From assembly GCA_016929495.1 (NCBI GenBank), contig JAFGIS010000511.1, forward strand, positions 1 through 62,433: a stretch of DNA of 62,433 bases, written 5' to 3'. Below are positions 6,894 to 21,433 of this stretch, in pieces. The notes beneath the pieces were generated by a model. The model worked only from the letters and a program-made list of their open reading frames with translations, was not told the DNA's origin and made no database searches. The DNA is from Polyangiaceae bacterium. Its GTDB lineage: Bacteria; Myxococcota_A; Polyangia; Polyangiales; Polyangiaceae. Position numbers and translations under genes: made by a program. Numbering within the stretch: position 1 is the stretch's first letter; each line of letters opens with the position of its first letter.

Positions 6894-6925
6894 CGCTCGC
6901 GGCTCCTCGATTCCGAGGTCAGTGA

Positions 6926-7093: not shown

Positions 7094-7118
7094 CGCAATG
7101 AACGCCCCAGGGTATTCT
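7090..7118 (+). promoter_or_regulatory. sigma70-like promoter of hicA copy 2, leaderless
   Basis: TTGACG (7090-7095), a 17-bp spacer and TATTCT (7113-7118), then six bases to the ATG at 7125. The -10 is close to consensus. The geometry equals that of copy 1, while the spacer has diverged, which supports selection on the promoter itself. Confidence 0.65.
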
Positions 7119-7124
7119 GAACCC

Positions 7125-7340
7125 ATGACCCCGCGTGAGGTCGTCCGTCGCCTGACGGCGCTCGGTTGCACGAAGGTGCGGCAGAAGGGGTCTCACGCCA
7201 CCTACATGGCCCCCGACGGCAAGTGCTGGACGACGGTGGCCATACACGAGGGACGCGACATTCCCGCGGGAACGCTGCGCGCCATCGAAAGGGAGCTGGA
7301 ACCATGCCTCGGAAGAAAGTGGCTGCTCGGTACCAAGTGA
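7125..7340 (+). CDS. hicA: HicA-type mRNA interferase toxin, copy 2
   Basis: 71 residues: MTPREVVRRLTALGC, then KGSHATYMAP with the catalytic His, then TTVAIHEGRDIPAGTLRAI. I chose the ATG at 7125 over the one at 7098 because the promoter ends at 7118 and copy 1 aligns to this Met. It overlaps hicB by 37 bp. Divergence from copy 1 is large enough for the two pairs not to be a recent duplication. Confidence 0.85.
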   Translation: MTPREVVRRLTALGCTKVRQKGSHATYMAPDGKCWTTVAIHEGRDIPAGTLRAIERELEPCLGRKWLLGTK

Positions 7341-7732
7341 TCTTCACCCCCGAGGGAACGAGCTGGAACGTGACCGTGCCCGCTGTGAGAGGCTGCCACA
7401 CCTGGGGGCGGAGCCTCGCCGAGGCCCGTCGACGGGTGCGGGAGGCCTTGGCCTGCGCACTGATAGAGCTGCCGGAGGCCGAGGCTGACCGCGTGGCCCG
7501 CGAAGCTGAGCTCGTCGAACGGATCCAGTTGCCCGGGCGCACTAGGAAGGTGCTCGGGGCGTGTCGTGCAAAGCGCATACGGCTGAACAAGGCACAAGCC
7601 GAACTCGTGGCTGAGTCGCGTCGGGCCGCCATCGCTCTCACGCGGGATGCCGGCGTTAGCCTTCGCGATGCTGGCGAGCTGTTGGGCCTGAGCCAGGAGC
7701 GGGTACGACAGCTGCTCGACAAGGCGTCGTGA
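7304..7732 (+). CDS. hicB: HicB-type antitoxin with C-terminal HTH, copy 2
   Basis: 142 residues from the ATG at 7304. The N-terminal HicB domain (YQVIFTPEGTSWNVTVPAV, HTWGRSLAEARRRVREAL) is followed by a helical linker and a helix-turn-helix (GVSLRDAGELLGLSQERVRQLL). It is the cognate antitoxin of the toxin at 7125 and probably its autorepressor. The protein is colinear with copy 1 at 4600-5034, and the last 26 residues are nearly identical in both. Confidence 0.85.
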   Translation: MPRKKVAARYQVIFTPEGTSWNVTVPAVRGCHTWGRSLAEARRRVREALACALIELPEAEADRVAREAELVERIQLPGRTRKVLGACRAKRIRLNKAQAELVAESRRAAIALTRDAGVSLRDAGELLGLSQERVRQLLDKAS

Positions 7733-7751
7733 ACGAACCGGTGATGCTCTG

Positions 7752-7943
7752 ATGGTAGGCCCCGCGCCGCGTGAACGGCCGGGGCGGTGGCGGAAAGGCA
7801 CTCCGCATCGCTATCCCGACGAGGTCACGGCGGAAGATCTCGCGGCCATGGATCGAGTGGTGGACGTCGACGCCGAAGCGTACCTGCGCTGGCTCGAGTC
7901 TGGGAAAGGGCCTGAGCCGTGCGAACCCGAGGCCTCCGAATAG
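7752..7943 (+). CDS. gene A, copy 2, with a replaced 5' end
   Basis: 63 residues. The conserved part (RYPDEVTAEDLAAMDRVVD, then AYLRWLESGKGPEPCEPEASE) matches copies 1 and 3. The 5' end is different: the TTGCGA/TACACT promoter and Pro-rich start are missing, and the ATG at 7752 lies at the edge of a leader-hairpin copy, so the first codons are made of hairpin sequence. It is a recombinant joint between the sequence downstream of hicB and the A/B block. Confidence 0.5.
   Translation: MVGPAPRERPGRWRKGTPHRYPDEVTAEDLAAMDRVVDVDAEAYLRWLESGKGPEPCEPEASE
7759..7785 (+). other. leader hairpin, copy inside gene A copy 2
   Basis: GCCCCG, a bulged C and GCCG pair with CGGC and CGGGGC around a six-base loop (CGTGAA), giving about ten pairs. 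It is the same structure as at 9756-9784, preceded by a related GATGGTAGG lead-in. Confidence 0.55.
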
Positions 7944-8062
7944 CGGAGCGTTTTCGTCGCACCCAGCGTCGCGTGACACCTGCCGGAACACCGGCAGCGC
8001 AGGCGCTCGCCGCAACGCTGGCGCGCCTGACCGTCGGCGAGCTTCCGGCCTGGCCCGACGAG
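7919..8062 (+). pseudogene. gene B, copy 2: N-terminal half only
   Basis: From the GTG at 7919, 48 codons match B of E3 (RTRGLRIAERFRRTQRRV through LTVGELPAWPDE). After that the frame runs on into unrelated sequence and eventually the protease. The RelE-like C-terminal part of B is absent, as in copy 1, while the partner A is kept. Confidence 0.55.
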
Positions 8063-8161
8063 TCTGGAGGAGGACAGGGCGCGACGGGAGCGGAAGACAT
8101 GATGCTCCTACTGCGCCGGGCGCGGGCTTCACAAATCGGCGCCGCGGCCGTTCTGCGAACC

Positions 8162-9655
8162 ATGCCCACGCAGGTCGGTCGGGCCGGAGGGCCGGGTTTG
8201 GGACTGCGCGGAAAGGCCCACTGCACTTTCACGTGTGTCGCCGCGGTGGTGTACGCCGGCTGCGGCACAGGCAGCTCACCGGTCGCGACACCGGGCTACA
8301 AGATCAAGTGCAAGCAGGACCGGGGCGACTGCCTCCAAGAAGCTGGAAAGCAGTGCTCCGGGGCCTACTACATCGTGAGCGAGGACCAGCACTGGGGCGG
8401 AGTACTGGCCGACGCAATCCCCGCGCAGACGCCATGGTGGACCCTGATTGTCGCGTGCGGTACTGCGCCGGCCGGGTATTCGCCGCCCAAGGTGACGACC
8501 GCTCCGCCTCCGCCCGCGCCGACCTCGACGGCAAGCCCCACGAGTCAGGACCCCGACGCGCCAAAGGAGCGCGACCTCCCCGAACTCCCGACGACGAAGC
8601 TCGCGGAGTTGTCGAGACAGGCCGTCGTTTCCGTGGAGAGCCCGAGCGGGCTGGGAAGCGGGTTTGCAGTCTCCCAGCGTCTCGTGGCCACCAACCTCCA
8701 CGTCGTCGCCGGACAACCGGCGATTCGGATCCGGCTGCCCAACGGCGAGGCGCACCCGGTCGCGCTTGTCGCAGCGTACGATCCCGACTGGGATCTGGCC
8801 CTACTTGTCGTTCCAACTCTGACGGCTCATCCGCTCGTGTTGGGCGATTCGAATGCCGTGGCAGTGGGGGAACGTGTCGTGGCGGTCGGCAACCCCCAGG
8901 GGCTCACTCTCACGGTCTCGGAGGGGATCGTCAGCGCGCTACGGGGCGCCCAAGGGAAGAGCGACATACTTCAGACAACTGCGCCGATCTCGCAGGGCTC
9001 ATCGGGCGGACCGCTCATGAGCTCACGAGGATTCGTCGTGGGCCTCACGACCGCCTACCTAGCCGGCGGCCAGGCGCTCAACTTCGCGATTGCGAGCTCA
9101 CATCTTCGCGCGCTTCTTCTCAAATCACGGGGCTCGCGTATCGCACTCGTCGACTTCGCTGACGCGACTCGGCCCCAAGAGCAGCCGAAGGCAGCACCAG
9201 CCCCTGCGCCGCCGCGATTGCCAAGTTTTCCCGACAACGTGGCGGGATTCCCGATGGGTCTGCCCGTCGACAAGCTGAAATACTACTGCCCCGGCTTCAC
9301 GTACATAGCCCCGACGATAGTGTCGTGCCCGTACGCTCTTGTCTCGTTGCCCTTCGCGTCGGCCCCCGTGGTCCTGACATTCGGCGCGGGGCAGATCACG
9401 AGTATTGGTGTTCGGGCGCACAGTAGGGCACGGGCGCACGCAATGCTCGCAGAGCGGTATGGGACGCCTGTCGCCCTGCGACAGGACAAGAAGCTCGGTT
9501 GGGTACCCGCCACCTCCTGGCCACGGGGCAGTCCCGGAGCTATCGAATGGCAGCTGGAGGGCGGGAGGATCCGTCTCGTTTCGCCTGACGGAAAGGACCT
9601 CTTGGTTGTGTTCGTCTCAGAGCTACAGGATAGACTGAGCGACGCCAGCTACTAG
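8162..9655 (+). CDS. secreted trypsin-like (HtrA/S1C-type) serine protease, putative lipoprotein
   Basis: 497 residues from the ATG at 8162; the open frame begins at 7919 in gene B debris, and ATGs at 8099 and 8102 are alternatives. The N-terminus has a hydrophobic stretch ending in VVYAGC, a possible lipobox. A Thr/Pro/Ala linker leads to a trypsin-fold protease domain with the triad His (ATNLHVVAG), Asp (DPDWDLALL) and Ser (SQGSSGGPL). No PDZ domain is visible. The C-terminal 170 residues after a second Pro-rich linker are unrecognised. No phage or replication role is evident; it is probably cargo. Confidence 0.75.
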   Translation: MPTQVGRAGGPGLGLRGKAHCTFTCVAAVVYAGCGTGSSPVATPGYKIKCKQDRGDCLQEAGKQCSGAYYIVSEDQHWGGVLADAIPAQTPWWTLIVACGTAPAGYSPPKVTTAPPPPAPTSTASPTSQDPDAPKERDLPELPTTKLAELSRQAVVSVESPSGLGSGFAVSQRLVATNLHVVAGQPAIRIRLPNGEAHPVALVAAYDPDWDLALLVVPTLTAHPLVLGDSNAVAVGERVVAVGNPQGLTLTVSEGIVSALRGAQGKSDILQTTAPISQGSSGGPLMSSRGFVVGLTTAYLAGGQALNFAIASSHLRALLLKSRGSRIALVDFADATRPQEQPKAAPAPAPPRLPSFPDNVAGFPMGLPVDKLKYYCPGFTYIAPTIVSCPYALVSLPFASAPVVLTFGAGQITSIGVRAHSRARAHAMLAERYGTPVALRQDKKLGWVPATSWPRGSPGAIEWQLEGGRIRLVSPDGKDLLVVFVSELQDRLSDASY

Positions 9656-9755
9656 GTCGTCTCGGCAGACGCTGACGCTGTCACCGCACCGGCCAGAGCA
9701 TTCACGGTGAACGCTTAGGGGGTGGAGCTCGCCGGGGAACCTGTCAGAATAGGAG

Positions 9756-9784
9756 CGCCCCGCGCCGCTCGAACGGCCGGGGCG
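9756..9784 (+). promoter_or_regulatory. leader hairpin upstream of the 9796 gene
   Basis: CGCCCCG, a bulged C, GCCG, a six-base loop, CGGC and CGGGGCG form an 11-bp G/C stem. It is followed at once by GGAGGG, which serves as the ribosome binding site for the ATG at 9796. GAATAGG precedes the stem. The structure recurs before an unrelated gene at 14315-14345 with a different loop, so it looks like a control element acting on translation or on transcript ends. Confidence 0.6.
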
Positions 9785-9795
9785 GAGGGTCGAGA

Positions 9796-10542
9796 ATGGC
9801 GACCGAGAAGAAGACTACAGCGAAGCGGGCGAGAGGCAAGGGCGCGAACGCTCCCCCGGCACAGGGCCAGGAGGCGGAGCGACAGGCACGGCGACGCCTG
9901 ATTGTATTGGACAGCGCGCAACAAGCTTGGGCGAACTTCGGCCGCTTCTCGCAGCCGGGGCGCGAGCGTGACCGCGGGCTTGCGGTCGCACGAATCGTGA
10001 AGGCGGCGTTCGACGCCTACATCGCGGAAGATGACGCCGAGCTTGACAGACTCGGCAAGGCAGCCAGAAGGTCCCTGCGCAGCACTCTTCGAAGGTGGGA
10101 GGAGCAGCAGTCGCCAAACGGGATGGTGAGAGTCGACGGTCCAAACGGCCCATCCCTTCACACGTTGGGCGACATCGTCGCGACGAAGGGCGCTTCGGGA
10201 GGACGCTACGACGCAATTCGTGGCAAACTGAACACGCTTGAGTGGATGCATGAAAAGGGGCAGCTGAACGCGGACAGCTACGCGAACTGGATGCTACTCA
10301 TGCTTCGATCGCCCTTCTTTGACTTCTTCGACGTCATACGAGACAGAAGGATTCTCGAGGCACCTCGCGTCCGGGACAAGCTTCGTCTCAGTTTCGATCG
10401 CGAGTACAACGCATCGCGGCCGCTGGACTGCGAGAGGCTCTTCGTTATCGGCCTGCGCACGCTGGGTGTGTCGTCGCAGGTCGCGCATAACCTTCTCAAG
10501 GCCGAGGATATGCGTGCGAAACGGGGCAAGGGGACGGACTAG
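9796..10542 (+). CDS. hypothetical cargo protein of E2
   Basis: 248 residues. A Lys/Ala-rich start (MATEKKTTAKRARGKG) is followed by a mostly helical body, including AQQAWANFGRFSQPGRERDR, FFDFFDVIRDRR and a C-terminal RLFVIGLRTLGVSSQ. No family recognised. It occupies the same slot as the gene at 14357 of E3 and shares with it the leader hairpin and the MAT-K start, but the rest does not align by eye. This is the kind of position where satellites carry variable cargo. Confidence 0.6.
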   Translation: MATEKKTTAKRARGKGANAPPAQGQEAERQARRRLIVLDSAQQAWANFGRFSQPGRERDRGLAVARIVKAAFDAYIAEDDAELDRLGKAARRSLRSTLRRWEEQQSPNGMVRVDGPNGPSLHTLGDIVATKGASGGRYDAIRGKLNTLEWMHEKGQLNADSYANWMLLMLRSPFFDFFDVIRDRRILEAPRVRDKLRLSFDREYNASRPLDCERLFVIGLRTLGVSSQVAHNLLKAEDMRAKRGKGTD

Positions 10543-10557
10543 CACTCGCCGAACCGC

Positions 10558-10764
10558 TCAACGCATGCGCTGTTGAGCTGCGGCGCAGCGGGCGTGTAGC
10601 ACTCCGTCGCGGCGCACCTGGCGACCGAGAAGCGCGACCGGTTCCCCGCAGTGCAGACACGCGCACCAGGGACACCGGTCACCGCAGTGCGTGCTGCGAC
10701 AGATGCTGCAACGCTTGCGCCTGTGCCCCCACAACCATTCATCAATCCGAAGTAGACGTCCCAC
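10558..10764 (-). CDS. small zinc-ribbon protein, divergent from the replication operon
   Basis: 68 residues on the minus strand with nine cysteines in knuckle-like spacing: KRCSICRSTHCGDRCPWC, then CLHCGEPV and a closing ARC. It probably binds two zinc ions. The pattern makes it more credible than the plus-strand frames here. It is transcribed away from the HTH-primase-ATPase operon, with two palindromes between the two. A short protein with a similar CVWCSC pattern lies at 15304 in E3. Confidence 0.5.
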   Translation of the reverse strand: MGRLLRIDEWLWGHRRKRCSICRSTHCGDRCPWCACLHCGEPVALLGRQVRRDGVLHARCAAAQQRMR

Positions 10765-10806
10765 GGTAAGAATCGTGGCGCCGAGGCAGTGCCAAGCATC
10801 TGCTCA

Positions 10807-10828
10807 GTAACAGAAGCGCCGCTGTTAC
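10807..10828. promoter_or_regulatory. palindromic operator-like site 1
   Basis: GTAACAG-N8-CTGTTAC, a perfect 7-bp inverted repeat. The same half-sites and spacing recur 57 bp to the right. It lies between the divergent zinc-ribbon gene and the HTH gene. Confidence 0.6.
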
Positions 10829-10863
10829 ATGGACAGGGAGGCAGCGCTGTCTGCGCGGAGTGT

Positions 10864-10885
10864 GTAACAGACGGCCGACTGTTAC
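10864..10885. promoter_or_regulatory. palindromic operator-like site 2
   Basis: GTAACAG-N8-CTGTTAC, extended by one more base pair on each side (TGTAACAG/CTGTTACA). The spacer differs from site 1. It probably binds the HTH protein encoded at 10932 or an initiator of the element. Confidence 0.6.
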
Positions 10886-10931
10886 ATGCGTGTCTACAGA
10901 CCGGCCACATTGGGGTAGGGCCAAGATCAAA

Positions 10932-11159
10932 ATGGCAGCTAGACCATCGCCTTCAACGCCGCCGCGTTGGCGTATTCTCGCGCTCTCCGTGCGAGCCGGG
11001 TGTGACCCACGGACGCTCACCAATGTGCTGCGCGGTGGTCCCATCCGCACCAGGGCCTCGGCTCGAGCCTACGAGACACTCGTCGCGGACGGTCTCATCC
11101 GCCCAGTTCAGGAGCCCGTTGGTCCGCGCCGATGGCGCGTGCAGCAGGCGAGGGCGTGA
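10932..11159 (+). CDS. small HTH DNA-binding protein of E2 (LacI/Cro-like)
   Basis: 75 residues from the ATG at 10932; the frame is open further upstream, but through the operator. The core ILALSVRAGCDPRTLTNVLRG is a helix-turn-helix of the LacI/Cro kind, followed by the recognition-helix-like ASARAYETLVADG. It overlaps the primase start (TGATG at 11157-11161), so the two are coupled. The equivalent E3 gene (15083) has AVAASCDPRTVVRVLRG. It probably represses its own operon through the palindromes. Confidence 0.65.
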   Translation: MAARPSPSTPPRWRILALSVRAGCDPRTLTNVLRGGPIRTRASARAYETLVADGLIRPVQEPVGPRRWRVQQARA

Positions 11160-12223
11160 TGACCGTGTCGACTGTCGAACGCGCCGCCCAGTACCTCCGG
11201 CAAGTGCCCCCGGCGCTTTCTGGCTCGGGCGGACACGGCACGACGTTCGCGGCCGCAGTGGCGTTGACTCGCGGGTTTGCGCTGGATGAGCAGACCGCGT
11301 TTAGGCTGCTCTCAGAGATCCACAACCCGACGTGTGAACCGCCCTGGTCGGAGCGGGAGCTCCGTCACAAGGTTGAATCGGCAGCCAAGGGCAGCACGCG
11401 CGCGCCCGGATACCTACTTGAGCGCAACGACCGGCGTGACTGGCAATCGCCCCGCAAGGCGCAGCCGTCAGAGCAACTGGATCCGACGAGCTATCACAAC
11501 GTGATCGCCCGGCTCCTGGACCTCTGCCCGTTCGTGGATGAGTCGGACGTGCTCGCCTACTGCGAGCGGCGCGTGCTGGTCATCGAAGGCGCCAATGTCC
11601 GGCTCGGTGGACTACCACCGCCACATGCGCAGCGGCCCATCGTGGCCGAGCTCCTGCGGCTGTTCGAGACCCAGACTCTGGTCCGCGCGGGCCTGCTTCG
11701 GTGCGACGAATCGGGAGCCGTCGACACCAGCCGGTTCATGTGGCCCCGGCATCGACTGCTCATCCCATGGCGTGATCCGGACGGGCGGATCGATATCCTG
11801 CAACGGCGACGGCTCGACGCTGGCGATCCGAAGTACGTCTTTCCGAGAGGCCGCAAACCTCCGTATCCCTTCGGCGTCGAGCAGTTCGCTGTGGCACCGG
11901 ACGAGCACACGATCGTTTGGTGCGAAGGCGCGGTGGACGTTCTGGCGCTCCGTCTGCTTGCGTTCCGCGACCGACTGCCAATCGTTCCGCTTGGGCTACC
12001 GGGGCTCGACGGTTGGCGCGCGGACTGGGCGGGCCCGTGCGGTGGAAGACATGTCCGAGTCGGGTTCGACGCCGACAGCGCGGACGACAAGCACGCGGAG
12101 CGCATCACCCGAGACCTGTACGCGGCAGACGCGGCATCGGTGAGCCGCTGGACGCCGAGCGGCGCAAAAGACTGGGCCGAGGCAATGGAGCGCGGCGTGC
12201 CACGGCCGGAGGTAGTAGCGTGA
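11159..12223 (+). CDS. Toprim-type DNA primase of E2
   Basis: 354 residues from the ATG at 11159. The N-terminal 85 residues resemble the primase C-terminal/PriCT fold (AAQYLRQVPPALSGSGGHG, then ERELRHKVESAAKG). The rest has Toprim motifs: VWCEGAVDVLAL with the acidic Glu, and VGFDADSADDK with the DxD pair. The segment LLIPWRDPDGRIDILQRR is typical of phage and plasmid primases. It makes RNA primers for element replication. The next gene overlaps by GTGA, so the two are an operon. Confidence 0.75.
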   Translation: MTVSTVERAAQYLRQVPPALSGSGGHGTTFAAAVALTRGFALDEQTAFRLLSEIHNPTCEPPWSERELRHKVESAAKGSTRAPGYLLERNDRRDWQSPRKAQPSEQLDPTSYHNVIARLLDLCPFVDESDVLAYCERRVLVIEGANVRLGGLPPPHAQRPIVAELLRLFETQTLVRAGLLRCDESGAVDTSRFMWPRHRLLIPWRDPDGRIDILQRRRLDAGDPKYVFPRGRKPPYPFGVEQFAVAPDEHTIVWCEGAVDVLALRLLAFRDRLPIVPLGLPGLDGWRADWAGPCGGRHVRVGFDADSADDKHAERITRDLYAADAASVSRWTPSGAKDWAEAMERGVPRPEVVA

Positions 12224-12710
12224 CGCAACCGAAAGACGCCTGGGGAAACCAGGCCGGCGAGGTCATCCCGCTACCGCGCCCGGACACGCCGCAGCTCGAC
12301 ACCCACGCGAACCCACGGCTGGTCCGCCTTGACGTCGACCACATCTTTGCTCCGCTCCCGCCCGTCCCGTGGCTCATCCGGGCGCTCGACATGTGCCCCG
12401 GAGCGCCGACACTGGTGGCCGGCTACGGATTCTCCGGCAAGTCGGTGGCAATGCAGTCCGCGGCCGTGTCAATTGCCGCCGGACGGAAGGTATGGGAGTG
12501 CTTCGCGGCTCGAAAAGGGCGCGTACTCTGGTGCGACTTCGAGCAAGGTCAGCGACTGACCAGGGCACGGTTCCAGCGCTTGGCTGCTTCTCTCATGCTG
12601 TCGCCCGACGACGTGCGGGGTCGTCTGGAGCTTGTGAGTATGCCGGGTGTGTATCTCGATAGCCCGGGCGCGGAGGACTACTGGAGCCGCGAGTGTGAAG
12701 GTGTCGGCGT
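12220..12710 (+). pseudogene. RepA-like AAA ATPase of E2, 3'-truncated
   Basis: From the GTG at 12220, which overlaps the primase stop. It has a Walker A motif (GYGFSGKSV, around residue 67) and Walker B (RVLWCDFEQ), as in RepA/DnaB-like hexameric helicases of small replicons. These are normally 270-350 residues. Here recognisable sequence ends after about 160, and the frame then runs through the att region to 13032. A deletion joined the gene to the end of a lost integrase. It is presumably inactive as a helicase. Confidence 0.65.
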
Positions 12711-12812
12711 TTCGTTCATGGCCGCGCTTCACACAGTGCGCGTCCGCCGGCACATCAGTACCCGCAACGGTACCCGCACGGCCCAGGCCCTTCCCCATCA
12801 GGGCCATTTTCC

Positions 12813-12859
12813 CAGTACGCCACGGGCGATTCGAACGCCCGACCTTCGGCTCCGGAGGC
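12813..12859 (-). other. attachment-site core, copy 2 (tRNA-Arg 3' end)
   Basis: 47 bp identical to the tRNA-Arg 3' end at 21357-21403. It marks the E2/E3 junction. Both flanks resemble copy 1: GGCCATTTTCC on the left and a CCGGGGCCGAA-CCACGG-type sequence on the right. Confidence 0.85.
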
Positions 12860-13232
12860 TCCGGGGCCGAACTCCACGGAGCCGAATTCAGCGCAATTTG
12901 AGCCAGGCGAGGAGACGGCGGTCGGCGTGGAACAGGATGAAACGGGGTGTGGGGCGAAACTCGTGGCCGAAACTCGGGTGCCTGCGCAAAACCCGGGAAG
13001 CCCCGACGAAAGGGCCCAAACCGCAGGCGTAGCCCTTCCAACGGGCGCAGAGCCGTCTCCCGTCGAGGCCGCGCTCGGGCATGCCATCAGACTTGCCGCC
13101 GACGCGGGCCAGTGGGCGGTAGTGGCGGAGCTCGGACGCGAGCTTTCGGCACGCCGCTTGGCCCGAGATGCGCCGGGGGTGACGTCGCTTGAAGCGGAGC
13201 GGCTGAGGGCCAAGCGCAATGCGCCGGGATGA
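12860..13232 (+). pseudogene. detached integrase C-terminal tail, copy T3 (tail of E3)
   Basis: The frame is open across att copy 2 in the integrase register and continues 123 codons to the TGA at 13230. It ends with VEAALGHAIRLAADAGQW, AVVAELGRELSARRLAR and VTSLEAERLRAKRNAPG. Excision of E3 at the 47-bp core would fuse it in frame to the integrase that now ends at 21422. It has no start codon of its own before the att; an internal ATG at 12927 would make only part. The stop overlaps the upstream region of gene A copy 3. Confidence 0.75.
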
Positions 13233-13298
13233 GCATCTGTTCGTGGCATGGGCGCCCTGCCGGGCGGGCAGGCAGCAAAGACGCCTGTCTTCCCGCCT

Positions 13299-13327
13299 TT
13301 GCGAGACTGAAGAGCCGGACGTACACT
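13299..13327 (+). promoter_or_regulatory. leaderless promoter of gene A, copy 3
   Basis: TTGCGA (13299-13304), 17-bp spacer, TACACT (13322-13327), six bases, GTG at 13334. It matches copy 1 at 5797 in hexamers and distances. Confidence 0.6.
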
Positions 13328-13333
13328 TTGAGC

Positions 13334-13522
13334 GTGTCCTCTCCCCCGAAAAGCACGCCGCCCGCGGGCGACGCGCCGCCTCTGTATCGCTATCCTGGCG
13401 AGCTCACGGCGGAAGATCTCGCGGCCATGGACCATGTCGTCGACGTCGACGGCGAAGCGTACCTGCGCTGGCTCGAGACCGGGGAGGGGCCTGATCCGTG
13501 CGAACCAGAGTCCTCCGAATAA
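13334..13522 (+). CDS. gene A, copy 3: small acidic protein, possible antitoxin
   Basis: 62 residues from a GTG six bases behind the -10 hexamer. The Pro-rich start (VSSPPKSTPPAGDAPP) is followed by the conserved core YPGELTAEDLAAMDHVVDVD and AYLRWLETGEGPDPCEP. Its last 25 bases overlap the GTG start of gene B. This is the only A/B pair in which B is full length. The antitoxin role is inferred from size, charge and arrangement. Confidence 0.6.
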   Translation: MSSPPKSTPPAGDAPPLYRYPGELTAEDLAAMDHVVDVDGEAYLRWLETGEGPDPCEPESSE

Positions 13523-13791
13523 CGGAGCAGTTTCGTCGCACCCAGCGTCGCGTGGCGCCAGCCGGAACCCCGGCAGCCCAGGCGCTTGCCGCCACACTGG
13601 CGCGCCTGACCTTCGGCGAGCTTCCGGCATGGCCCGATAGCGAAACCCTGGTTCCGCCCGTGCGTCGCTACTGGTTCCGTCGCGTGCCGAACATGAACCT
13701 GTGGGTTCTCTATTCGTTCGATGATGCTCACGTCACCGCGCGCGCGGTGGTGTCGAGCCCGCCGGTGCCGGTGGGCGGCCGCGAGGGATAG
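13498..13791 (+). CDS. gene B, copy 3: small basic protein, possible RelE-like toxin
   Basis: 97 residues, starting at a GTG inside the end of gene A. The N-terminus is basic (RTRVLRITEQFRRTQRRV), then AQALAATLARLTFGELPAW. The C-terminus (RRYWFRRVPNMNLWVLYSFD, then AHVTARAVVSSPPVPVG) has the strand pattern Arg-x-LY-x-hydrophobic-D-x-x-V of RelE/ParE-type ribonuclease toxins. That resemblance is by eye only. Copies 1 and 2 have both lost this C-terminal part, which fits a harmful activity. Confidence 0.5.
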   Translation: MRTRVLRITEQFRRTQRRVAPAGTPAAQALAATLARLTFGELPAWPDSETLVPPVRRYWFRRVPNMNLWVLYSFDDAHVTARAVVSSPPVPVGGREG

Positions 13792-13807
13792 ACGGGCGGA
13801 GCGGGCT

Positions 13808-13951
13808 GGAGTCTGCGGCCAAGGCCGGGGCGGCGAGTACGGTCGAACGGCTCGGCGGGGACTCGAGCCACGACGAAAAGCCACGGCCGACAAGGACAAC
13901 GCGGACGTCATTACGCTGGACTCGGCTCGACGCGCTAGGGGTGACACATAG
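13808..13951 (+). pseudogene. degenerate integrase tail, copy T4
   Basis: The DNA matches T1 (ESAAKAGA-STVERLGG at 13809-13856) and then shifts frame; the end VITLDSARRARGDT resembles the T1 end. A small indel near 13860 splits it into two frames. It indicates another ancient element end inside E3. Confidence 0.55.
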
Positions 13952-14314
13952 CCGCCAGGATGCCGGGGCGACACGCGCCGTCGCTCCTGCCCCGTGGTCT
14001 TGACGGGTCTGGCCGCGACCCGCAGACTACGGCTATCCTCCGGGGGACAGTACCCGAGAGCCAAGACAGCTGCCTGGCTGCGTTCCCGTCCCGCTTTGTT
14101 GGACGAGCGGCAAGAGAGACCGACCGATTCTCTCGGCGGCAGACGATGTGACAGCCTGGGCCCTGCGACCGAAGCACCAGGGGTCAACTGGTGGCTTTTG
14201 TGCGTCAGCGCCGCCGCACGGGGGCTGTCGCGAGGGTGTGCGTCGGTACCGTCTGCGGGCGGCGAATCTGCTGGGCGGCAAGACACCTCCCTGATCCAGG
14301 TGCGAGAATAGGTT
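13952..14314. other. gene-poor stretch before the hairpin-led cargo gene
   Basis: A 363-bp stretch with only unconvincing open frames (for example 13994-14311, without family likeness or ribosome site). Codon bias does not favour any frame. No repeats beyond the leader hairpin at its right end are visible. Confidence 0.5.
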
Positions 14315-14345
14315 CGCCCCGCGCCGCTTGGACTCGGCCGGGGCG
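14315..14345 (+). promoter_or_regulatory. leader hairpin upstream of the 14357 gene
   Basis: CGCCCCG, bulged C and GCCG pair with CGGC and CGGGGCG around an eight-base loop (CTTGGACT). The stem is identical to that at 9756, but the loop has changed in length and sequence. GAATAGG precedes it and GGAGGG follows it, in front of the GTG at 14357. Confidence 0.6.
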
Positions 14346-14356
14346 GAGGGTCGACT

Positions 14357-15016
14357 GTGGCGACCAAGAAGCAGGATACCCCGACGTCGGGTGGGAGAAA
14401 GCACGGCAACGATCGCATCGGCCCGTTGCTAGACCAGGTTCGACAGGCCTACTTCGGAGCCAAGTTGGAGTACCTCAAGGCCAAGCCTGACGACGCGGCA
14501 CGTCTCGAGGTTGCCGCGCTCGGGGTGGCCGCGGCTGCACTTCATAAGGCGCAGACCGTGCGCGGCCTCAGCGAAGAGCAGACCGGCCCAATTGCGAAAC
14601 GGCTGCAGCAGGCCCTTACGTTGCTGGAGCGGGACGGAGGGACGCGAGAGACGGACCAGCGGTACGCGGCTATCGCACGTATCCACACTTTCATGAGCAA
14701 TTCCTGGCCCGAGCCCTCACCGGGGAACCCATTGCGCACGAAGCGAAGCAGCGCCCTAGTCGTCGAGGTCCTCGCTGCCTTGACGTTCGCTTCTCCCGTG
14801 GGAGAAGCGGCTGGGTTCGTGAGTGGTGGCAATGAGGCCGCCGAGCGTGTCATCGCGACGTGGCGGAAGCCGGGGCAGTGGGTCGCGATCAACGCCCTGC
14901 TTGCACTCTGGGGGCTGCATCTGCCCGACGATGCGGGGAACAAGCGTCGCCGCTACGGAGCCACCCACCGGCTGGCAAACTGGTACTCAACCGCGCGCAA
15001 GCGCCGCGCGGGATGA
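14357..15016 (+). CDS. hypothetical cargo protein of E3
   Basis: 219 residues from a GTG that follows the hairpin and GGAGGG ribosome site. The N-terminus is Lys/Gly rich (MATKKQDTPTSGGRKHG). The rest is mainly helical and has no motif that I recognise; there is an Ala-rich EVAALGVAAAALHKAQ helix and a NALLALWGLHLP segment. It lies in the same slot, with the same leader, as the E2 gene at 9796. A defence or satellite function is conceivable but unsupported. Confidence 0.6.
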   Translation: MATKKQDTPTSGGRKHGNDRIGPLLDQVRQAYFGAKLEYLKAKPDDAARLEVAALGVAAAALHKAQTVRGLSEEQTGPIAKRLQQALTLLERDGGTRETDQRYAAIARIHTFMSNSWPEPSPGNPLRTKRSSALVVEVLAALTFASPVGEAAGFVSGGNEAAERVIATWRKPGQWVAINALLALWGLHLPDDAGNKRRRYGATHRLANWYSTARKRRAG

Positions 15017-15082
15017 CGATCGTCCATGTACAGACTCTGTACCTGATGCGCCAGCCGAAATAGGCCTCATTTTGGTTGGGTC

Positions 15083-15307
15083 ATGCCAACTGAATCAAGG
15101 CTCACGGCCCCGGAACTGCGCGAGATCGCCGTGGCCGCATCATGTGATCCCCGCACCGTTGTCCGAGTCCTACGGGGGCACGCCCGCGACACGCTCGCTT
15201 CCCGCAGAATCCGGGCGGTCCTGGTGCGTCGGGGCATCTACCCCACCGGCCCAGTCAGACAGGTCGACCCGACAACCCTGCCTCCCACGCGGGAGGCCAA
15301 GCCGTGA
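15083..15307 (+). CDS. small HTH DNA-binding protein of E3
   Basis: 74 residues. LTAPELREIAVAASCDPRTV and VRVLRGHARDTLASRRIRAV form a LacI/Cro-like helix-turn-helix followed by a basic helix. The counterpart at 10932 in E2 has the same CDPRT-V-LRG core and the same place directly before the primase genes. The end overlaps the following small gene by GTGA (15304-15307). No obvious palindrome precedes it, unlike in E2. Confidence 0.65.
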   Translation: MPTESRLTAPELREIAVAASCDPRTVVRVLRGHARDTLASRRIRAVLVRRGIYPTGPVRQVDPTTLPPTREAKP

Positions 15308-15462
15308 GGAAGCGCTCGCTCGCCTCGCGCTGGCAGCGTTGGGCGCGCGCCATGCGGTCCTGCGTCTGGTGCAGCTGTCGCGTCCCTCGAGGGCATGACG
15401 TCCGATTACGTAGTCGCGTTGCGCACCCGCGGTGCCCCCGCACGGTGGAGCGCGGACGATGA
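15304..15462 (+). CDS. short zinc-knuckle-like protein
   Basis: 52 residues from a GTG overlapping the previous stop; the end overlaps the PrimPol start (ATGA, 15459-15462). It is strongly basic, with a CVWCSCRVPRGHD segment and a terminal HPRC, a possible small zinc knuckle. The two exact overlaps with its neighbours are the main argument that it is translated. It may be the E3 counterpart of the zinc-ribbon protein at 10558. Confidence 0.5.
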   Translation: MRKRSLASRWQRWARAMRSCVWCSCRVPRGHDVRLRSRVAHPRCPRTVERGR

Positions 15463-16244
15463 CCAACCTCTCGCGCCTCGCGCGCGCAGCACTCTGGTAC
15501 TCCCGACGGCTGGGCTGGGCGGTGTTCCCGTTGCGGCCTCGGGACAAGACGCCACTGATTCCGCGGGCGGACGGGGGACGCGGGTACCTCGATGCGACGG
15601 ACGATCCCGGGCAGATCGCCCAATGGTGGGCCGAAACGCCGGACGCGAACGTCGGGGTTGCCTGCGGCGCGTCGGGCTTGACCATCGTCGACATCGACCC
15701 GCGAAATGGCGGCGACGACGCGTGGGAGGAACTCACCCGCGACAGCGAGATACCTAGTACGGTCGAGTGTCTGACCGGTGGCGGAGGACGGCACCTGTAC
15801 TTCGCTGGCGCTGGCCGAACGTGTGCGCTCCGCGATGGTGTCGAGGTCGCGAGCCACGGCCACTATGTCGTGGCTCCGCCGAGCATTCACCCGAGCGGGC
15901 GACAGTACAACTGGGAAGCATCCAGCCGACCCAATGAGGTCGAGTTGGCCCCCCTGCCCGAATGGCTCTGCCGGATGATTGGCGAGCGTCCAGCGTGCCG
16001 AATCTACGACCCGGGCAGCGGCACGACGGATCCACAGTCGTTCCCGCTTGGGGCCGCGTTCGCGGCTGATGGACTGCTCGGGTCCGAGCTCCGACCGGGT
16101 GTCTGGGCCGTGTTGTGCCCCAACCGCGCCCAGCACACCACGGGCAGAGACTTCGACTCCAGCACGATCCTGTTTGCTCCGGGAGCGGGGCAGCGGCGCG
16201 GATACGTGCACTGTTCCCACGCGCATTGCCGGGAGATCTATTGA
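15459..16244 (+). CDS. PrimPol (archaeo-eukaryotic primase-polymerase) domain protein
   Basis: 261 residues from the ATG at 15459. The bifunctional primase/polymerase N-terminal domain is recognisable by GWAVFPLRPRDKTPLIP, the metal-binding TIVDIDPRNGG (DxD) and the GGGGRHLYF His motif. The conserved HYVVAPPSIHPSGRQYNW follows. Such proteins synthesise primers and extend them on element DNA. The next gene, a D5-type helicase, overlaps by TGATG, the usual primase-helicase pairing, which is often a single protein in phages and plasmids but is split here. Confidence 0.85.
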   Translation: MTNLSRLARAALWYSRRLGWAVFPLRPRDKTPLIPRADGGRGYLDATDDPGQIAQWWAETPDANVGVACGASGLTIVDIDPRNGGDDAWEELTRDSEIPSTVECLTGGGGRHLYFAGAGRTCALRDGVEVASHGHYVVAPPSIHPSGRQYNWEASSRPNEVELAPLPEWLCRMIGERPACRIYDPGSGTTDPQSFPLGAAFAADGLLGSELRPGVWAVLCPNRAQHTTGRDFDSSTILFAPGAGQRRGYVHCSHAHCREIY

Positions 16245-17884
16245 TGGCGGCGAAGAAGAACGTCCTGAGGAGCATGTCGCCGAAGGCCCAGGCGGCCGCG
16301 ACGGCACTGCTTCCTGGGGCTTTCCAATTGACGGACATGGGAAACGCCGAGCGACTGGTGGCCCGCTTTCGCGACCGGATCCGCTTCTGCCCTCCACGCA
16401 AGCTGTGGCTGCTGTGGGACGGGAAACGCTGGGCGTGGGACCAGACGGGCGAGGTCATGGCGCTGGCCAAGCAGACAGCCCGCGCAATCTACGGCGAGGC
16501 CGAAGCCTGCAACGACTCCGACAAGCGGGGACAGATCGCTAAGCACGCGCACGCGAGCGAGAAGGCCGCGCGCCTGCAGGCGATGATCACGCTTGCCGAA
16601 AGCGAGGCAGGGATCCCGGTAATGCCTGCCGCGCTCGATGGGGATCCTTGGCTGCTCTGCTGTAAGAACGGCACGCTGGACCTCAGGACGGGAGAGCTTC
16701 GCGAGCATCGGCAGAGCGACCTGATCACCAAGATGGCCGGAGCCGAGTACCAGGCCGGAGCGACGTCCAAGCTGTGGGATAGGTTCCTTTCCGACGCGAC
16801 CGGAGGGGACACCGAGCTTGCCGCGTACCTCCAGCGGCTTGCCGGGTATTGCCTGTACGGGGCGGTAGCAGAGAAGGCGTTCTGGTTCTTCTACGGCCCA
16901 CCCGACGGCATGAAGTCGACCTACATCGGCGCGCAATGCGCGACGCTCGGAGACTATGCCGCGGCCACGGACTTCAACACCTGGCTCGTGCAGACGCACG
17001 TCGGGGGCAACCGCGACGACATCGTTGCGCTGTTGGGGTCGCGTCTCGTGGTCAGTGTCGAGGTGCGGAAAGGTGCCATGTTCGACTCGGCCATGGTGAA
17101 GCGCGTCACGGGTAACGACACCTTCAGCGCGGCCGCCAAGTACGAGAAGCCCATCGAGTTCCGAGCGAGTTTCGCTCTGCTTCTGGCAGGAAACCACGCT
17201 CCGATCGTGGGTGATGACGACGACGGCATGTGGTCGAGGGTTCGACGGGTGCCGTTCACCAACTCGCTCCCGAAGGACAGGCAAGACCCGCTGATGCGCG
17301 ACAAGCTGAACGCGCCGGAGGTGCGTAACGCAATCCTGGCTTGGGCGGTCGAAGGCTTCCGAAACTGGAACGAGCAGGGTGTGGGTACATGTGCCGCAGT
17401 CGAGCGCTCCAACGCCGAATATCGAAAAGACATGGATCGGGCAGAGGGGTTCTTCGACGAGCGGTGTTCTTTCGAGCCGGTCGCGTCCGAGCAGACCCCA
17501 GCGCTGCGCCGGGCCTATGAGGATTGGGCGGATGAGCTCGGAATCAAGCCCCTGAGCGGCAAGGAACTCGCCAAGCGGCTTGAGGGCAAGGGGTGCACGC
17601 GGGGCAAGTCCAATGGCAAGCGTGTGTGGGATGGGGTGCGCCTCCTTGAGAACCGGGATGACGCACCGTGGACAGCTGGACAGCAGGGACAGCAGGGACA
17701 GCAGGGACAGCAGGGACAGCAAGATTCCAAGACTCTTCCATGTACCGGCTCACGAAGGGACTTCTGTGGATCTGCCGACCCTAGTGACCCTGGTGACCCT
17801 GGTGACCCGGACGGAGGCAAGTATGACGATGAAGAACGTCGGGGAATCCAAGGGGAGCTTGGGCACGACCGAGGTGGAGAGTGA
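16244..17884 (+). CDS. D5/P4-type superfamily 3 helicase (phage/plasmid primase family)
   Basis: 546 residues from the ATG at 16244, overlapping the PrimPol stop; a longer open frame starting at 16115 lies within PrimPol. The D5 N-terminal domain (residues about 60-200) precedes an SF3 ATPase with Walker A FYGPPDGMKST (about residue 217), Walker B RLVVSVEV and the NDTFSAAAKYEKPIEF and LLAGNHAPIV motifs. It unwinds the element origin. The last 70 residues are low complexity, with GQQ and DPG repeats coded by 9-bp repeats. Together with PrimPol it forms a self-contained replication module. Confidence 0.85.
   Translation: MAAKKNVLRSMSPKAQAAATALLPGAFQLTDMGNAERLVARFRDRIRFCPPRKLWLLWDGKRWAWDQTGEVMALAKQTARAIYGEAEACNDSDKRGQIAKHAHASEKAARLQAMITLAESEAGIPVMPAALDGDPWLLCCKNGTLDLRTGELREHRQSDLITKMAGAEYQAGATSKLWDRFLSDATGGDTELAAYLQRLAGYCLYGAVAEKAFWFFYGPPDGMKSTYIGAQCATLGDYAAATDFNTWLVQTHVGGNRDDIVALLGSRLVVSVEVRKGAMFDSAMVKRVTGNDTFSAAAKYEKPIEFRASFALLLAGNHAPIVGDDDDGMWSRVRRVPFTNSLPKDRQDPLMRDKLNAPEVRNAILAWAVEGFRNWNEQGVGTCAAVERSNAEYRKDMDRAEGFFDERCSFEPVASEQTPALRRAYEDWADELGIKPLSGKELAKRLEGKGCTRGKSNGKRVWDGVRLLENRDDAPWTAGQQGQQGQQGQQGQQDSKTLPCTGSRRDFCGSADPSDPGDPGDPDGGKYDDEERRGIQGELGHDRGGE
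17678..17722 (+). repeat. 9-bp tandem repeat in the helicase gene (GQQ repeat)
   Basis: Five copies of GGACAGCAG, the last with one change. The unit is a multiple of three, so changes in copy number keep the frame. Confidence 0.85.
17777..17812 (+). repeat. second 9-bp tandem repeat in the helicase gene (DPG repeat)
   Basis: Four copies of GACCCTGGT with small changes, coding for DPS-DPG-DPG-DPD. Confidence 0.8.
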
Positions 17885-18075
17885 CCAGAAACACGCGCTT
17901 CCGGTCTGTCACCCCAATTGTTGACGGGCTGCCCGCCGGCATGACCCGCGTCCTTTCGAACCTCGCCGCTGCCCCGGAACGGGCCCGGAGGGGTTCGAAT
18001 CCGAACCGCACGCGCCGTCATGGGGCAGGCCAGAAACAGAATGCAGCTTCAACGGAGCAAGGGGGACCGGTATGA
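17881..18075 (+). CDS. small hypothetical protein between helicase and excisionase
   Basis: 64 residues from a GTG that overlaps the helicase stop (GTGA); its own stop overlaps the excisionase start (ATGA, 18072-18075). It is basic and has no known domain. The two overlaps are the reason to accept it. A stretch near 17990 looks like a tRNA T-loop (GGTTCGAATCC) but has no partner arms. Confidence 0.45.
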   Translation: MTRNTRFRSVTPIVDGLPAGMTRVLSNLAAAPERARRGSNPNRTRRHGAGQKQNAASTEQGGPV

Positions 18076-18512
18076 CGGAACCGTTGGCACTCCTAACCGC
18101 CACCCAGCTCCGGGAGCTCGTGGCCGACGCCGTCGCGGGAGCTCTCGCCAGTTTCGAGGCTGGACGTGCACCGGAGCCTGACCTCGTGTCGAGTGTCGAG
18201 ATGGCTCGACGGTTGTGTGTCAGCCGAACCAAGCTGCACCGACTCCGGCTCGCTGGGTGCCCAGCAGTGCGCGTTGGCGATACCTACCGCTACCGGCCGT
18301 CAACCGTGCTTGCGTGGCTGGAGGAGCAAACCGCCGGCTGCTCGAGCCGACAGCTGACGGAACGAACCACTGACGAATCAGCCACTTCCGCGATCGGCGC
18401 GCTGAGTTTCGTCCCTACAGTTTTGGCCCCCCCTGACAAAGGTCCGAGAACACGCGCTGGTTCGGCGTCGACCCGAACGACTCAAGAGACGAAGCCCGGA
18501 GGCATCCGGTGA
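18072..18512 (+). CDS. excisionase-like HTH protein
   Basis: 146 residues. Residues 35-90 form a MerR/AlpA-type winged helix: VEMARRLCVSRTKLHRLRLA, then VRVGDTYRYRPSTVLAWLEE. This is the HTH_17 arrangement found in recombination directionality factors and element regulators. The C-terminal 55 residues are Ser/Thr rich and probably disordered. A truncated relative is at 6069-6269 in E1. Its closeness to the integrase supports a role in excision; transcriptional regulation is an alternative. Confidence 0.7.
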   Translation: MTEPLALLTATQLRELVADAVAGALASFEAGRAPEPDLVSSVEMARRLCVSRTKLHRLRLAGCPAVRVGDTYRYRPSTVLAWLEEQTAGCSSRQLTERTTDESATSAIGALSFVPTVLAPPDKGPRTRAGSASTRTTQETKPGGIR

Positions 18513-19054
18513 GCTGGCGCGCTGCCCACGGGCACGCGCGTAGGTGCGGCCGCCTGGCGGTTCTCGAGAGCCCGCCGAGCGACGAGCTACGGTCCGCTAT
18601 GCCAATCCCTCCGGTCCGTGGTGACCGAGACACCGGCGGTCGGTTCCTACCGGGAAACAGGGCCGGGGCTGCCAAGCGCTTCAAGGCGGGAGCGCGGGGC
18701 GCGCTCCCCGCACTTGAGAAACAGGGTGACCCCGCAGCCCGGGCGGCCTTGGCCTTCGCTCGTCGCTACGCGGCACACCGGCGAGTGGAATTGGCTGCCG
18801 CACATGGCGGCACCCTGAGTGCTGGTGTGGGCGCCATGATTGAGAGCGCCGGGGAGCTGCTCGCGTTGGCCCGCTACTGGTCAGCTCGCGGCCTTGCCGA
18901 GGCGTCACCAGACTTCGCCCGCCTGGCTGCGACCCTGATTGCTGGGCAGCGTCAGGCCGAGCGCGACGCTTGGGAACTGGCGTCCAGAGAGGCTTCACAG
19001 CGCCGCGTTGACTACCACGCTGCGCTGGCCGCCCTCGTCCCTGAGGGAAAATGA
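18509..19054 (+). CDS. hypothetical protein with a GRFLPGN motif
   Basis: 181 residues from a GTG overlapping the excisionase stop. DTGGRFLPGNRAGAAKRFK resembles the N-terminal motif of small terminase-like and DUF5681-type phage proteins. The remainder is helical and Ala rich. Without a large terminase, a packaging role cannot be claimed; a satellite might redirect a helper terminase. The first about 30 codons are poorly conserved-looking, and an ATG at 18599 is an alternative start. Confidence 0.5.
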   Translation: MSWRAAHGHARRCGRLAVLESPPSDELRSAMPIPPVRGDRDTGGRFLPGNRAGAAKRFKAGARGALPALEKQGDPAARAALAFARRYAAHRRVELAAAHGGTLSAGVGAMIESAGELLALARYWSARGLAEASPDFARLAATLIAGQRQAERDAWELASREASQRRVDYHAALAALVPEGK

Positions 19055-19392
19055 TGGTCCAAGACCGTGACCGGGACTGGCCCCCTACACCGCTGGTGGG
19101 GCCGGGGGGGTCGATCGCTCCGGGGGGCCCCAGCGCGCGCCAAACGACGCCTTTGGCGGGGCGAATCCGCACGAGACCACGACCGGCCACGCTCCTGCGG
19201 GGAAACCCAGTGCGACCTGCACGGCTGCACCCACAAACTGCCAGGGCTCGTGGTTGGCCCCGTCTGGCGCGACCTCCGACGGTTGTGTCCCCGGCCAATA
19301 TCGGCGATCAATACGAGATGGCCGGAGACGGCTCGTCTGCCGCCACGCCCGCCCGATGGTCAGCGAAGAAGGGCGTTCAAGAGGAGAATACG
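19055..19392. other. gene-poor stretch before the lipoprotein
   Basis: A 338-bp stretch in which open frames extend from 19051 and 19067, but neither has a recognisable domain or a ribosome site. It contains G-runs near 19105. I see no convincing gene. Confidence 0.45.
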
Positions 19393-20070
19393 ATGCCAGG
19401 CTACATGGTTCGCAGATACGCTCGGGCGACGTGCGCGATTCGTTGGCTCTGGCCGCTCGCGACGGTCATCGCGCTGGCATGCGCCCCCCAAACCGTGGGA
19501 GTGAGAGGCCCGACCGTGGGAGGCAACGAGAACAACGCAGCTCCAGCGGCCCAGCCGCCGCCGCAATCGCCGCCGCAGCGGACGGAGCAACCCACGCCGG
19601 GTTCGGTAGCCGCTTCAACCTGTCAACCGTGTCCCGAGTGTACGGTGGCCGCGCCAAAACCACAGACCGATGGACCGCTCAAGCTCGATGCGGTTCCCTG
19701 GTGCTACGTGGCCGGGACTTCGCGGAACCTTGCCGTTCAGACAATAGTAACCACGGTCTATGTCCGCCCGGGCGGGACGCGAGAGACGTCCAGGCTCCTG
19801 TGGTACATCATGTGCGGTCCCACAAATGAATGCCGCGGCGCAAGCGTTCGCCTTGGCAATATCGACGAAGGTCGGCCGCTGCAGGTACTAGACATGGGTC
19901 TCATGACCGGACAGATCGCGTCCTGGACGCCTTCCCGGGTCGTGATCCAGTGGGGCCCGTGGCAGACATTCACGGTGGACCTTGCAGCGGGCAAGGTCTT
20001 CTATTCGGAGTCGGGAGAGGGAGCTAAGGGCGGGGACTACGAAGGCCGCGGGGAAGGGCGATGCGGGTGA
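19393..20070 (+). CDS. lipoprotein carried by E3
   Basis: 225 residues from the ATG at 19393, which has GAGGAG six bases upstream. The signal peptide (MVRRYARATCAIRWLWPLAT) ends in a VIALAC lipobox. A Pro/Gln/Ala-rich linker is followed by a cysteine-containing C-terminal domain (CQPCPECTV, WYIMCGPTNEC) that I do not recognise. It overlaps the integrase start by ten bases. Surface lipoproteins on mobile elements can act in exclusion of related phages, but there is no direct sign of that here. Confidence 0.6.
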   Translation: MPGYMVRRYARATCAIRWLWPLATVIALACAPQTVGVRGPTVGGNENNAAPAAQPPPQSPPQRTEQPTPGSVAASTCQPCPECTVAAPKPQTDGPLKLDAVPWCYVAGTSRNLAVQTIVTTVYVRPGGTRETSRLLWYIMCGPTNECRGASVRLGNIDEGRPLQVLDMGLMTGQIASWTPSRVVIQWGPWQTFTVDLAAGKVFYSESGEGAKGGDYEGRGEGRCG

Positions 20071-21422
20071 ACCTGGGACGGCACGCGGGAGGCCGGCCGC
20101 GAAAAGGCACGCTGGAACTCCGCGCCGGAACGTGGCACGCGCGCATCACAACCATTGTGGACGGCGAGCCCGTCCGCAAGCGCATATCGCTCGGCACCGA
20201 TAACGCAGCCGTGGCTCGTGCAAAGCTCCGCCGGCTCCTGCGCGGCGAGTTGAAACCCGAAGCCGCGCCAGAGACCGAGACCTTCGAGCAAGCCGCGGAC
20301 CGTATCGTCGACACGCAAGAGAAGGTCCAAGGCCTGGCCACCGCGACCGAACGACGCTCCCGGCTCCGGCGCTACGTCTTCCCCACCCTCGGCCCGATGC
20401 CGGTCACGGGGATCAAGGCCGCCCACGTGCGCGGTGTACTCGAAGCCGCTCGCGACGCGGGACGTAGTCGCCAGACGATGCTTCACATCCTGCACGACGT
20501 CTCGAGCGTGCTCGGCGAGCTCTGGCGCGCGGAGCTCTTGCCCGAGAACGTGGCCAAGCGCGTGAGCGTCAAGGACATACTGCCGCACCGCGAACAGAAG
20601 CGCGAACGGGCCGTGCTCACGGACGATGAACTGGTTCGGTACCTAGCGTGGCAGCATCCGGACGGGCAGCACCGCATGGCTGCCCTCGAACGGCAAGTCA
20701 TGGCCTGCGTCGCTCGGATGCTCGGCGGCCAGCGAACGAGCGACCTTCATGCCGCACGCTGGGAGGACTTCGAGCTCCCCGAGTTCACCGAGGCGCGAGT
20801 CCGAAGCGAGAAGACGGGCAAGACCCGGCGCCTGCACGTGCCCGAAATGCTCCGCCCCATCCTGGCAGACTGGTGGACCCGGCGGGGCGAGCCCAAGACG
20901 GGGCTCCTGTTCCCGACACGGCGCGGAGACCGGGCTGGCCAGCAACGCATCGGGATCACCCATGCCAAGGCGTTCCGCCGGGACCTGCGCCGGGCGTTCG
21001 GGCTCGAGGTCCCCGAGCGGGTGCGGATCATGCGCTCGCACGGCACGCCCGACACCCGGATCCGCTGGAAGCCAGGACGCCAGCCCACCGCTCGCGAGCG
21101 GACCCTCTTGGACGGTGACGCCAACACCCTCCCCGTGGACTTCCACAGCTGGCGCCGAGCCTTCAGCCAGGCACTTGCCGAGGCGGGCTTGAACGAACAG
21201 CAGGCCATGGCCCTCGCCGGTCACGAGAGCGAGGAAGCGCACCGGCGCTACCTCCGAGCACGCGACCGCCTGCGGGAATTGCCGATCGCTGCCCTGCCCC
21301 GCCTGGGAGTTTCGTCCCACCCCTGGCCTAAACTCCCCAGCGGATCCCCCCTTTCTCAGTACGCCACGGGCGATTCGAACGCCCGACCTTCGGCTCCGGA
21401 GGCCGACGCTCTATCCAGCTGA
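20061..21422 (+). CDS. int: tyrosine integrase of E3, C-terminus altered by integration
   Basis: 453 residues as integrated. An N-terminal arm-binding part (GRPRKGTLELRAGTWHARIT) and a SAM-like core-binding domain precede the catalytic domain. Catalytic residues visible are Arg in GGQRTSDLHAARWEDF, HSWRR (HxxR), the His of AGHES and the nucleophile Tyr in HRRYLRA. About 40 codons after the Tyr the frame enters the tRNA-Arg gene, read antisense (YATGDSNARPSAPEA), and stops at 21422. The attachment core therefore lies inside the gene. In a circle the frame would continue into the tail now at 12860-13232. Confidence 0.9.
   Translation: MRVNLGRHAGGRPRKGTLELRAGTWHARITTIVDGEPVRKRISLGTDNAAVARAKLRRLLRGELKPEAAPETETFEQAADRIVDTQEKVQGLATATERRSRLRRYVFPTLGPMPVTGIKAAHVRGVLEAARDAGRSRQTMLHILHDVSSVLGELWRAELLPENVAKRVSVKDILPHREQKRERAVLTDDELVRYLAWQHPDGQHRMAALERQVMACVARMLGGQRTSDLHAARWEDFELPEFTEARVRSEKTGKTRRLHVPEMLRPILADWWTRRGEPKTGLLFPTRRGDRAGQQRIGITHAKAFRRDLRRAFGLEVPERVRIMRSHGTPDTRIRWKPGRQPTARERTLLDGDANTLPVDFHSWRRAFSQALAEAGLNEQQAMALAGHESEEAHRRYLRARDRLRELPIAALPRLGVSSHPWPKLPSGSPLSQYATGDSNARPSAPEADALSS
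21357..21404 (-). other. attachment-site core, copy 3 (within the intact tRNA-Arg)
   Basis: The 48-bp sequence shared with 6468-6515. It covers the tRNA from the discriminator base back to the anticodon loop and also codes for the last residues of the integrase on the other strand. Confidence 0.85.
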
Positions 21423-21433
21423 GCTAGTGGCGC
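21360..21433 (-). tRNA. tRNA-Arg (anticodon CCG)
   Basis: On the minus strand a complete cloverleaf can be folded: acceptor GCGCCAC/GTGGCGT, D-arm GCTC-AGCTGGATA-GAGC, anticodon arm TCGGC-CTCCGGA-GCCGA with CCG at positions 34-36, and T-arm GGGCG-TTCGAAT-CGCCC. CCA is not encoded. It reads CGG codons. Its 3' half is the integration site of the array, and the integrated elements keep it intact. Confidence 0.95.

Follow-up and report, generated by a model that had tools for sequence, protein, structure and literature searches.

An integrative element of a myxobacterium with its attachment site inside its own integrase gene and a predicted exchange of the integrase C-terminus upon integration

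A satellite-like integrative element of 8.5 kb, probably spanning positions 12860-21403 of a DNA stretch from a soil myxobacterium, appears to carry its whole attP (the core and both arm regions) inside its own integrase gene. Because attP lies within int, integration would swap the conserved tail of the integrase for a stop codon from the host tRNA gene, and the C-terminus of the enzyme is thereby predicted to be exchanged while the catalytic domain is kept. The stretch analysed, termed the window, comprises 62,433 nt of a Polyangiaceae bacterium (GCA_016929495.1, contig JAFGIS010000511.1, positions 1-62,433, forward strand).

In the integrated state, int (20061-21422, + strand) encodes a tyrosine integrase of 453 aa (PF00589 E 5.4e-12, PF22022; phrog_1 E 3e-37). 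The tyrosine recombinase motifs GGQRT, HSWRR, GHES and HRRYL are present in this order, with key residues that are invariant across the integrase clade (profile A2), and the catalytic Tyr (HRRY) is located near residue 397, about 36 residues ahead of the att core, which starts at codon 433. The right copy of the core (21357-21403), within both int and the tRNA-Arg gene, and the left copy (12813-12859) form an exact direct repeat of 47 bp, one less than the 48 bp given in an earlier note on this DNA, which was otherwise right in pairing the two; only a third core (6468-6515), absent from the note, matches the right copy exactly over 48 bp. An intact tRNA-Arg(ccg) gene, regenerated by integration, occupies 21359-21433 on the - strand (ARAGORN; Rfam E 7e-12). 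As the note had seen, the int frame crosses the core in this gene and stops; the stop, at codon 453, comes six codons beyond the core and not eight residues later, and the TGA that ends the frame is the antisense of tRNA-Arg(ccg) positions 12-14. The displaced 3' end of int (the tail, 123 codons plus stop, 12860-13232, + strand) was recognized by its phase with int across the core and by its dN/dS ratio. When 20061-21403 was joined to 12860 onward, a single open frame of 571 codons was obtained, compared to 453 in the chromosome, which bears out the claims that the core at 12813 continues in the same register into a 123-codon tail and that attP inside int specifies a longer integrase in the circle. 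The truncation comes after the catalytic tyrosine and the short form would keep the catalytic domain, also as proposed. Joining of the outer flanks without the element restored an intact tRNA-Arg with either of the left cores; this fixes the assignment of attL and attR and places the tail inside the element.

Between its ends, the element carries a Prim-Pol primase/polymerase (15432-16244, + strand; PF09250 E 3e-43), a D5_N primase-helicase (16238-17884, + strand; PF08706 E 8e-35; phrog_2478) and an HTH protein that is a candidate excisionase (RDF) (18072-18512, + strand; HTH_17 E 3e-5, below the Pfam cut-off; phrog_66 excisionase E 4e-7). Replication genes are thus present and no virion genes were recognizable in the element with Pfam and PHROG, in agreement with its earlier description as satellite-like. 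A primase-helicase, an integrase and a regulatory HTH protein without virion genes make up the gene set of P4-like satellites, with which the element has in common the Prim-Pol and D5-type primase-helicase, an AlpA-like HTH, int and a tRNA site; unlike in these satellites, a helper or capsid-hijacking gene was not identified in the window element.

Repeat analysis revealed putative arm-type integrase sites on both sides of the core. Two copies of CGAAACTC, 13 bp apart, constitute putative P' arm sites in the tail linker (12955-12975), and GGAGTTTCG and AAACTCCCC putative P arm sites in the int coding region (21306-21338). Pairs of CGAAACTC spaced by 13 bp are found at 6610/6623 and 12955/12968, with no other copy on the + strand of the 62 kb, and GAGTTTCG, the complement of CGAAACTC, occurs three times in the window, one of these copies being that on the int side at 21307. 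Comparing the interval -80 to -12 on the int side with the interval +120 to +180 on the tail side, we found an 8-mer common to both arms in 14/14 elements tested, compared to a mean of 2.9 and a maximum of 8 in 2000 control draws. The sequences of the arm repeats vary between elements and their geometry is kept, as expected for putative arm-type sites bound by the N-terminal domain of the integrase. As these candidate sites lie within the linker, the poorly conserved tail linker would be P' arm DNA too.

To the left of the first element lies a second (6468-12812), which has a core and a tail of its own but no integrase at its right end. The tail (6516-6893, + strand, 125 aa) is in phase with the core at 6468, is homologous to 12860-13232 and includes the CGAAACTC pair at 6610/6623. 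The element also encodes a truncated ATPase and, at 11132-12223, a Toprim/PriCT-like primase whose matches fall below Pfam cut-offs. The last dozen bases to the left of both left cores are nearly alike (6440-6467 and 12785-12812); these segments encode residues resembling the end of int (PFSQYATGD), but lack a P-arm site, and upstream of them the frames do not encode integrases. A fourth tail of the same family (2812-3150) follows a different tRNA-like fragment with a T-arm motif in frame, indicating that this region of the window has gathered several such elements.

The conserved part of the tail is a helical hairpin, termed the VEAALA type (13062-13229, + strand; family profile A1). The window tail is predicted to form a two-helix hairpin (pLDDT 92-98) after a disordered linker, and a full-length model of a relative from a virus contig (L065) shows the same layout at moderate quality (mean pLDDT 61). 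For the tails at 12860 and 6516, dN/dS was 0.50 when read in the int phase, compared to 0.92-0.99 for the alternative frames; by part, it was 0.28 for the helical segment and 0.87 for the linker, which is nearly neutral. Three more tails of the same genome gave 0.14-0.24. With ratios of 0.14-0.28, the tails evolve as protein. No Pfam or PHROG family was found for the tail. This tail type was detected in 44/108 Polyangiaceae genomes, and a tRNA T-arm motif lay within 450 nt upstream in 28 of the 43 Polyangiaceae tail loci examined (expected, 0.23 per locus). The tails of different elements do not all belong to one family, and the ends seen are mostly basic and not ssrA-like. In another genome (G103:C1 3129001-3169000; L184, L185), the same tail type follows an unrelated integrase at a tRNA-Pro(ggg) gene, with a 47-bp core in phase. 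That integrase is akin to the window integrase across 56 catalytic residues only, and the presence of one tail type behind unrelated integrases points to a modular tail.

The clade was surveyed with profile A2 across 108 genomes of Polyangiaceae and 379 of Myxococcota. At a cut-off of E 1e-40, which favours close relatives, members were found in 20 Polyangiaceae genomes and in two genomes of other families in the order. Among the 34 chromosomal integrase copies, which are not independent samples, an intact tRNA gene is located at the 3' end in 27 and lacking in 7, and in 25/34 the int frame enters the intact tRNA gene in antisense. The 25 targeted tRNAs represent 12 anticodon types, or 13 when two short-stopping copies are added; the integrases of G388a and G283a end ahead of the tRNA. 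The int stop lies inside the tRNA in 18 copies, and in 16 of these it is a TGA at sense positions 12-14 or 13-15 or a TAA/TAG at positions 7-9. A single contig carried both ends for 17 core pairs, two of which are those of the window. In 15 of these 17, the frame that continues int beyond the displaced core was the longest of the three (binomial p 4e-6); over all 17 pairs it stays open for 22-126 codons (median 82), the two other frames having medians of 25 and 17. Integrated frames mostly end 1-16 codons past the core, the exceptions being 44 and 71. In G432b, whose tail has 22 codons, integration would lengthen the protein instead of shortening it, and in G260 the in-phase frame is exceeded by one that is out of phase. 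The two core copies of G260 (L062, L063) have 119 bp in common, upstream int sequence included, which suggests a former tandem pair or a recent duplication. Combined, the survey results argue that the entry of int into a tRNA gene across the clade is not due to chance.

Fused forms were present in virus contigs. In the four IMG/VR relatives (L064-L067, 34-42% identical), a single frame runs from the catalytic domain through a tRNA-derived peptide into a helical tail in 4/4 cases, and the tRNA-derived peptide that the earlier note had proposed to look for in full-length, tail-bearing integrases is thus present. In each, a single tRNA T-arm motif is found where it is expected, and the site has no intact tRNA; an Rfam tRNA remnant was detected in L065 (E 0.0007) and weakly in L067, and not in L064 and L066. 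The L065 tail matches the window tail type (E 3e-7). No end repeats were found in these contigs, which therefore show a joined attP junction and not a proven circle. Integrase and tail queries against phage and plasmid collections gave no useful match.

The closest precedent, already named in the earlier note, is Myxococcus phage Mx8, in which attP and repeats lie inside intP (D86464 record) and in which, as stated in a review, integrase activity is altered and not lost after integration (PMC6070905). The two systems are alike in having the attP core within the int frame, in the window downstream of the catalytic Tyr, with flanking repeats (in the window, putative arm sites) on both sides in the same frame; both keep the catalytic domain, both come from the same phylum, and in both a tRNA-antisense-like peptide is followed by a tail, which is about 100 aa long in Mx8. 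The loss upon integration of an in-phase C-terminal extension present in the circle form is likewise predicted here from the joined sequence. The Mx8 integrase is, however, only distantly similar (blastp 26% over just 62 aa, E 7e-4; both match phrog_1), its tail falls outside the VEAALA type, with no significant profile score, and Mx8 is a full phage and not a satellite-like element. The Mx9 integrase (L188 18795-20441) also has a C-terminal extension beyond the catalytic domain, on a similar principle according to the review (PMC6070905); instead of a helical hairpin, this extension consists of an HTH_17 domain (E 3.5e-11), as if an excisionase had been fused to the integrase. Integration of Mx9 would remove HTH_17 if attP precedes it, as the review suggests. 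Archaeal suicidal integrases of the SSV, pTN3 and pT26-2 type share the location of the recombination site within the integrase gene, but in these archaeal systems the gene is broken in two, with the catalytic part cut off from the remainder (PMC8371274). The window integrase loses the C-terminal tail only: the core (codon 433) falls after the catalytic Tyr near 397 and recombination does not detach the catalytic part, so that the comparison with SSV made earlier fails. Recombinases that disrupt their own gene are described as exclusive to archaea (PMC8371274); the window integrase is truncated and not disrupted. Integration-dependent immunity of the BPs type is alike in that integration truncates a C-terminus and changes regulation, and unlike in that attP lies in the repressor gene and not in int (PMC4557955). 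The Islander program exempts integrases that extend across attP, naming Mx8 and SSV (PMC4383910). We found no report of a clade-wide pattern or of the tail family in the open-access literature searched.

We consider it probable that this is an attP-in-int element in which the long form integrates and loss of the tail stabilises the integrated state. In the circular form, the integrase would be of 571 aa and consist of the catalytic part, the tRNA-antisense peptide, a flexible linker that also carries the putative P' arm sites, and the conserved helical hairpin. Recombination at the tRNA-Arg gene would cut 124 codons from the 3' end of the frame, which would instead be completed by the host-derived half of the tRNA gene, in this element with six codons followed by a TGA that lies opposite tRNA positions 12-14. 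We infer that the tail helps integration: the long form would act in this step, with the tail as an aid to assembly or to activity on attP. Loss of the tail would leave a less active or differently specific short form, the built-in switch supposed in the earlier note, stabilising the integrated state and biasing against reversal. Excision may then require the short form together with an excisionase such as the HTH protein at 18072, and would bring back the long form.

The opposite direction is unlikely: the tail would be a restraining or destabilising domain, the circle would make a weak or short-lived integrase, and integration would lift this brake to give a stable short form that excises. 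The repressor of mycobacteriophage BPs does lose a C-terminal degradation tag on integration, and the BPs integrase has a proteolysis signal too (PMC4557955); the tails are likewise short C-terminal add-ons on a disordered linker. Their conserved part is, however, a predicted folded hairpin and not a short tag, their mostly basic ends do not resemble ssrA, and an unstable enzyme in the sole state that needs integration is harder to account for. It is quite improbable that there is no switch, attP merely lying at the int 3' end with a frame open by accident and a tail that is roleless or leaves the action unchanged. Long chance open frames do occur in high-GC genomes, many tRNA-targeting elements have attP at the int 3' end, and some tails are short (22 codons in G432b) or beaten by another frame (G260); against this stand the in-phase bias, the purifying selection in the int phase only, the four virus contigs with fused forms and the recurrence of this tail type behind an unrelated integrase. 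We give little credence to the idea that the left end of the integrated element also expresses the displaced tail as a small protein of its own, which would act on the short integrase in trans. A GTG codon at 12927 might begin a 101-aa product, but it sits in the poorly conserved linker, the aligned codon in the sister tail 6516-6893 is CTG, and the tails at 2962, C394 and C288 of the same genome have, by eye, no common upstream start. That repeats make the tail only seem joined, by chance or misassembly in a draft genome of 675 contigs, is extremely improbable, as the same architecture is found in about 20 other genomes, including the near-complete G103 (5 contigs), and in virus contigs. Beyond the preferred reading, in which the long form integrates, we tentatively suggest a broader possibility, that of a lineage-wide control module: unrelated tyrosine integrases of myxobacterial elements may have gained an exchangeable C-terminal hairpin beyond attP, integration, with a stop from conserved tRNA positions, may switch the form of the enzyme, and excision between different core pairs in tandem arrays could vary the tails.

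Site-specific recombination poses the central question of how an integrase is kept from reversing the reaction it has carried out, and the usual answer is excisionases. A clade whose reaction rewrites the enzyme would provide a second answer to this reversal problem. An attP within int and a changed C-terminus are already known from phage Mx8; new here are the spread over a clade, the modular helical tail, the tRNA positions giving the stop codon and the satellite-like setting. These findings also carry a warning for annotation, as chromosomal copies of such elements present the integrase gene with a wrong end, and orphan tails resemble unrelated small genes. In conclusion, a principle known from two Myxococcus phages now appears to be widespread and associated with a common tail domain, and the idea of a switch thereby becomes directly testable.
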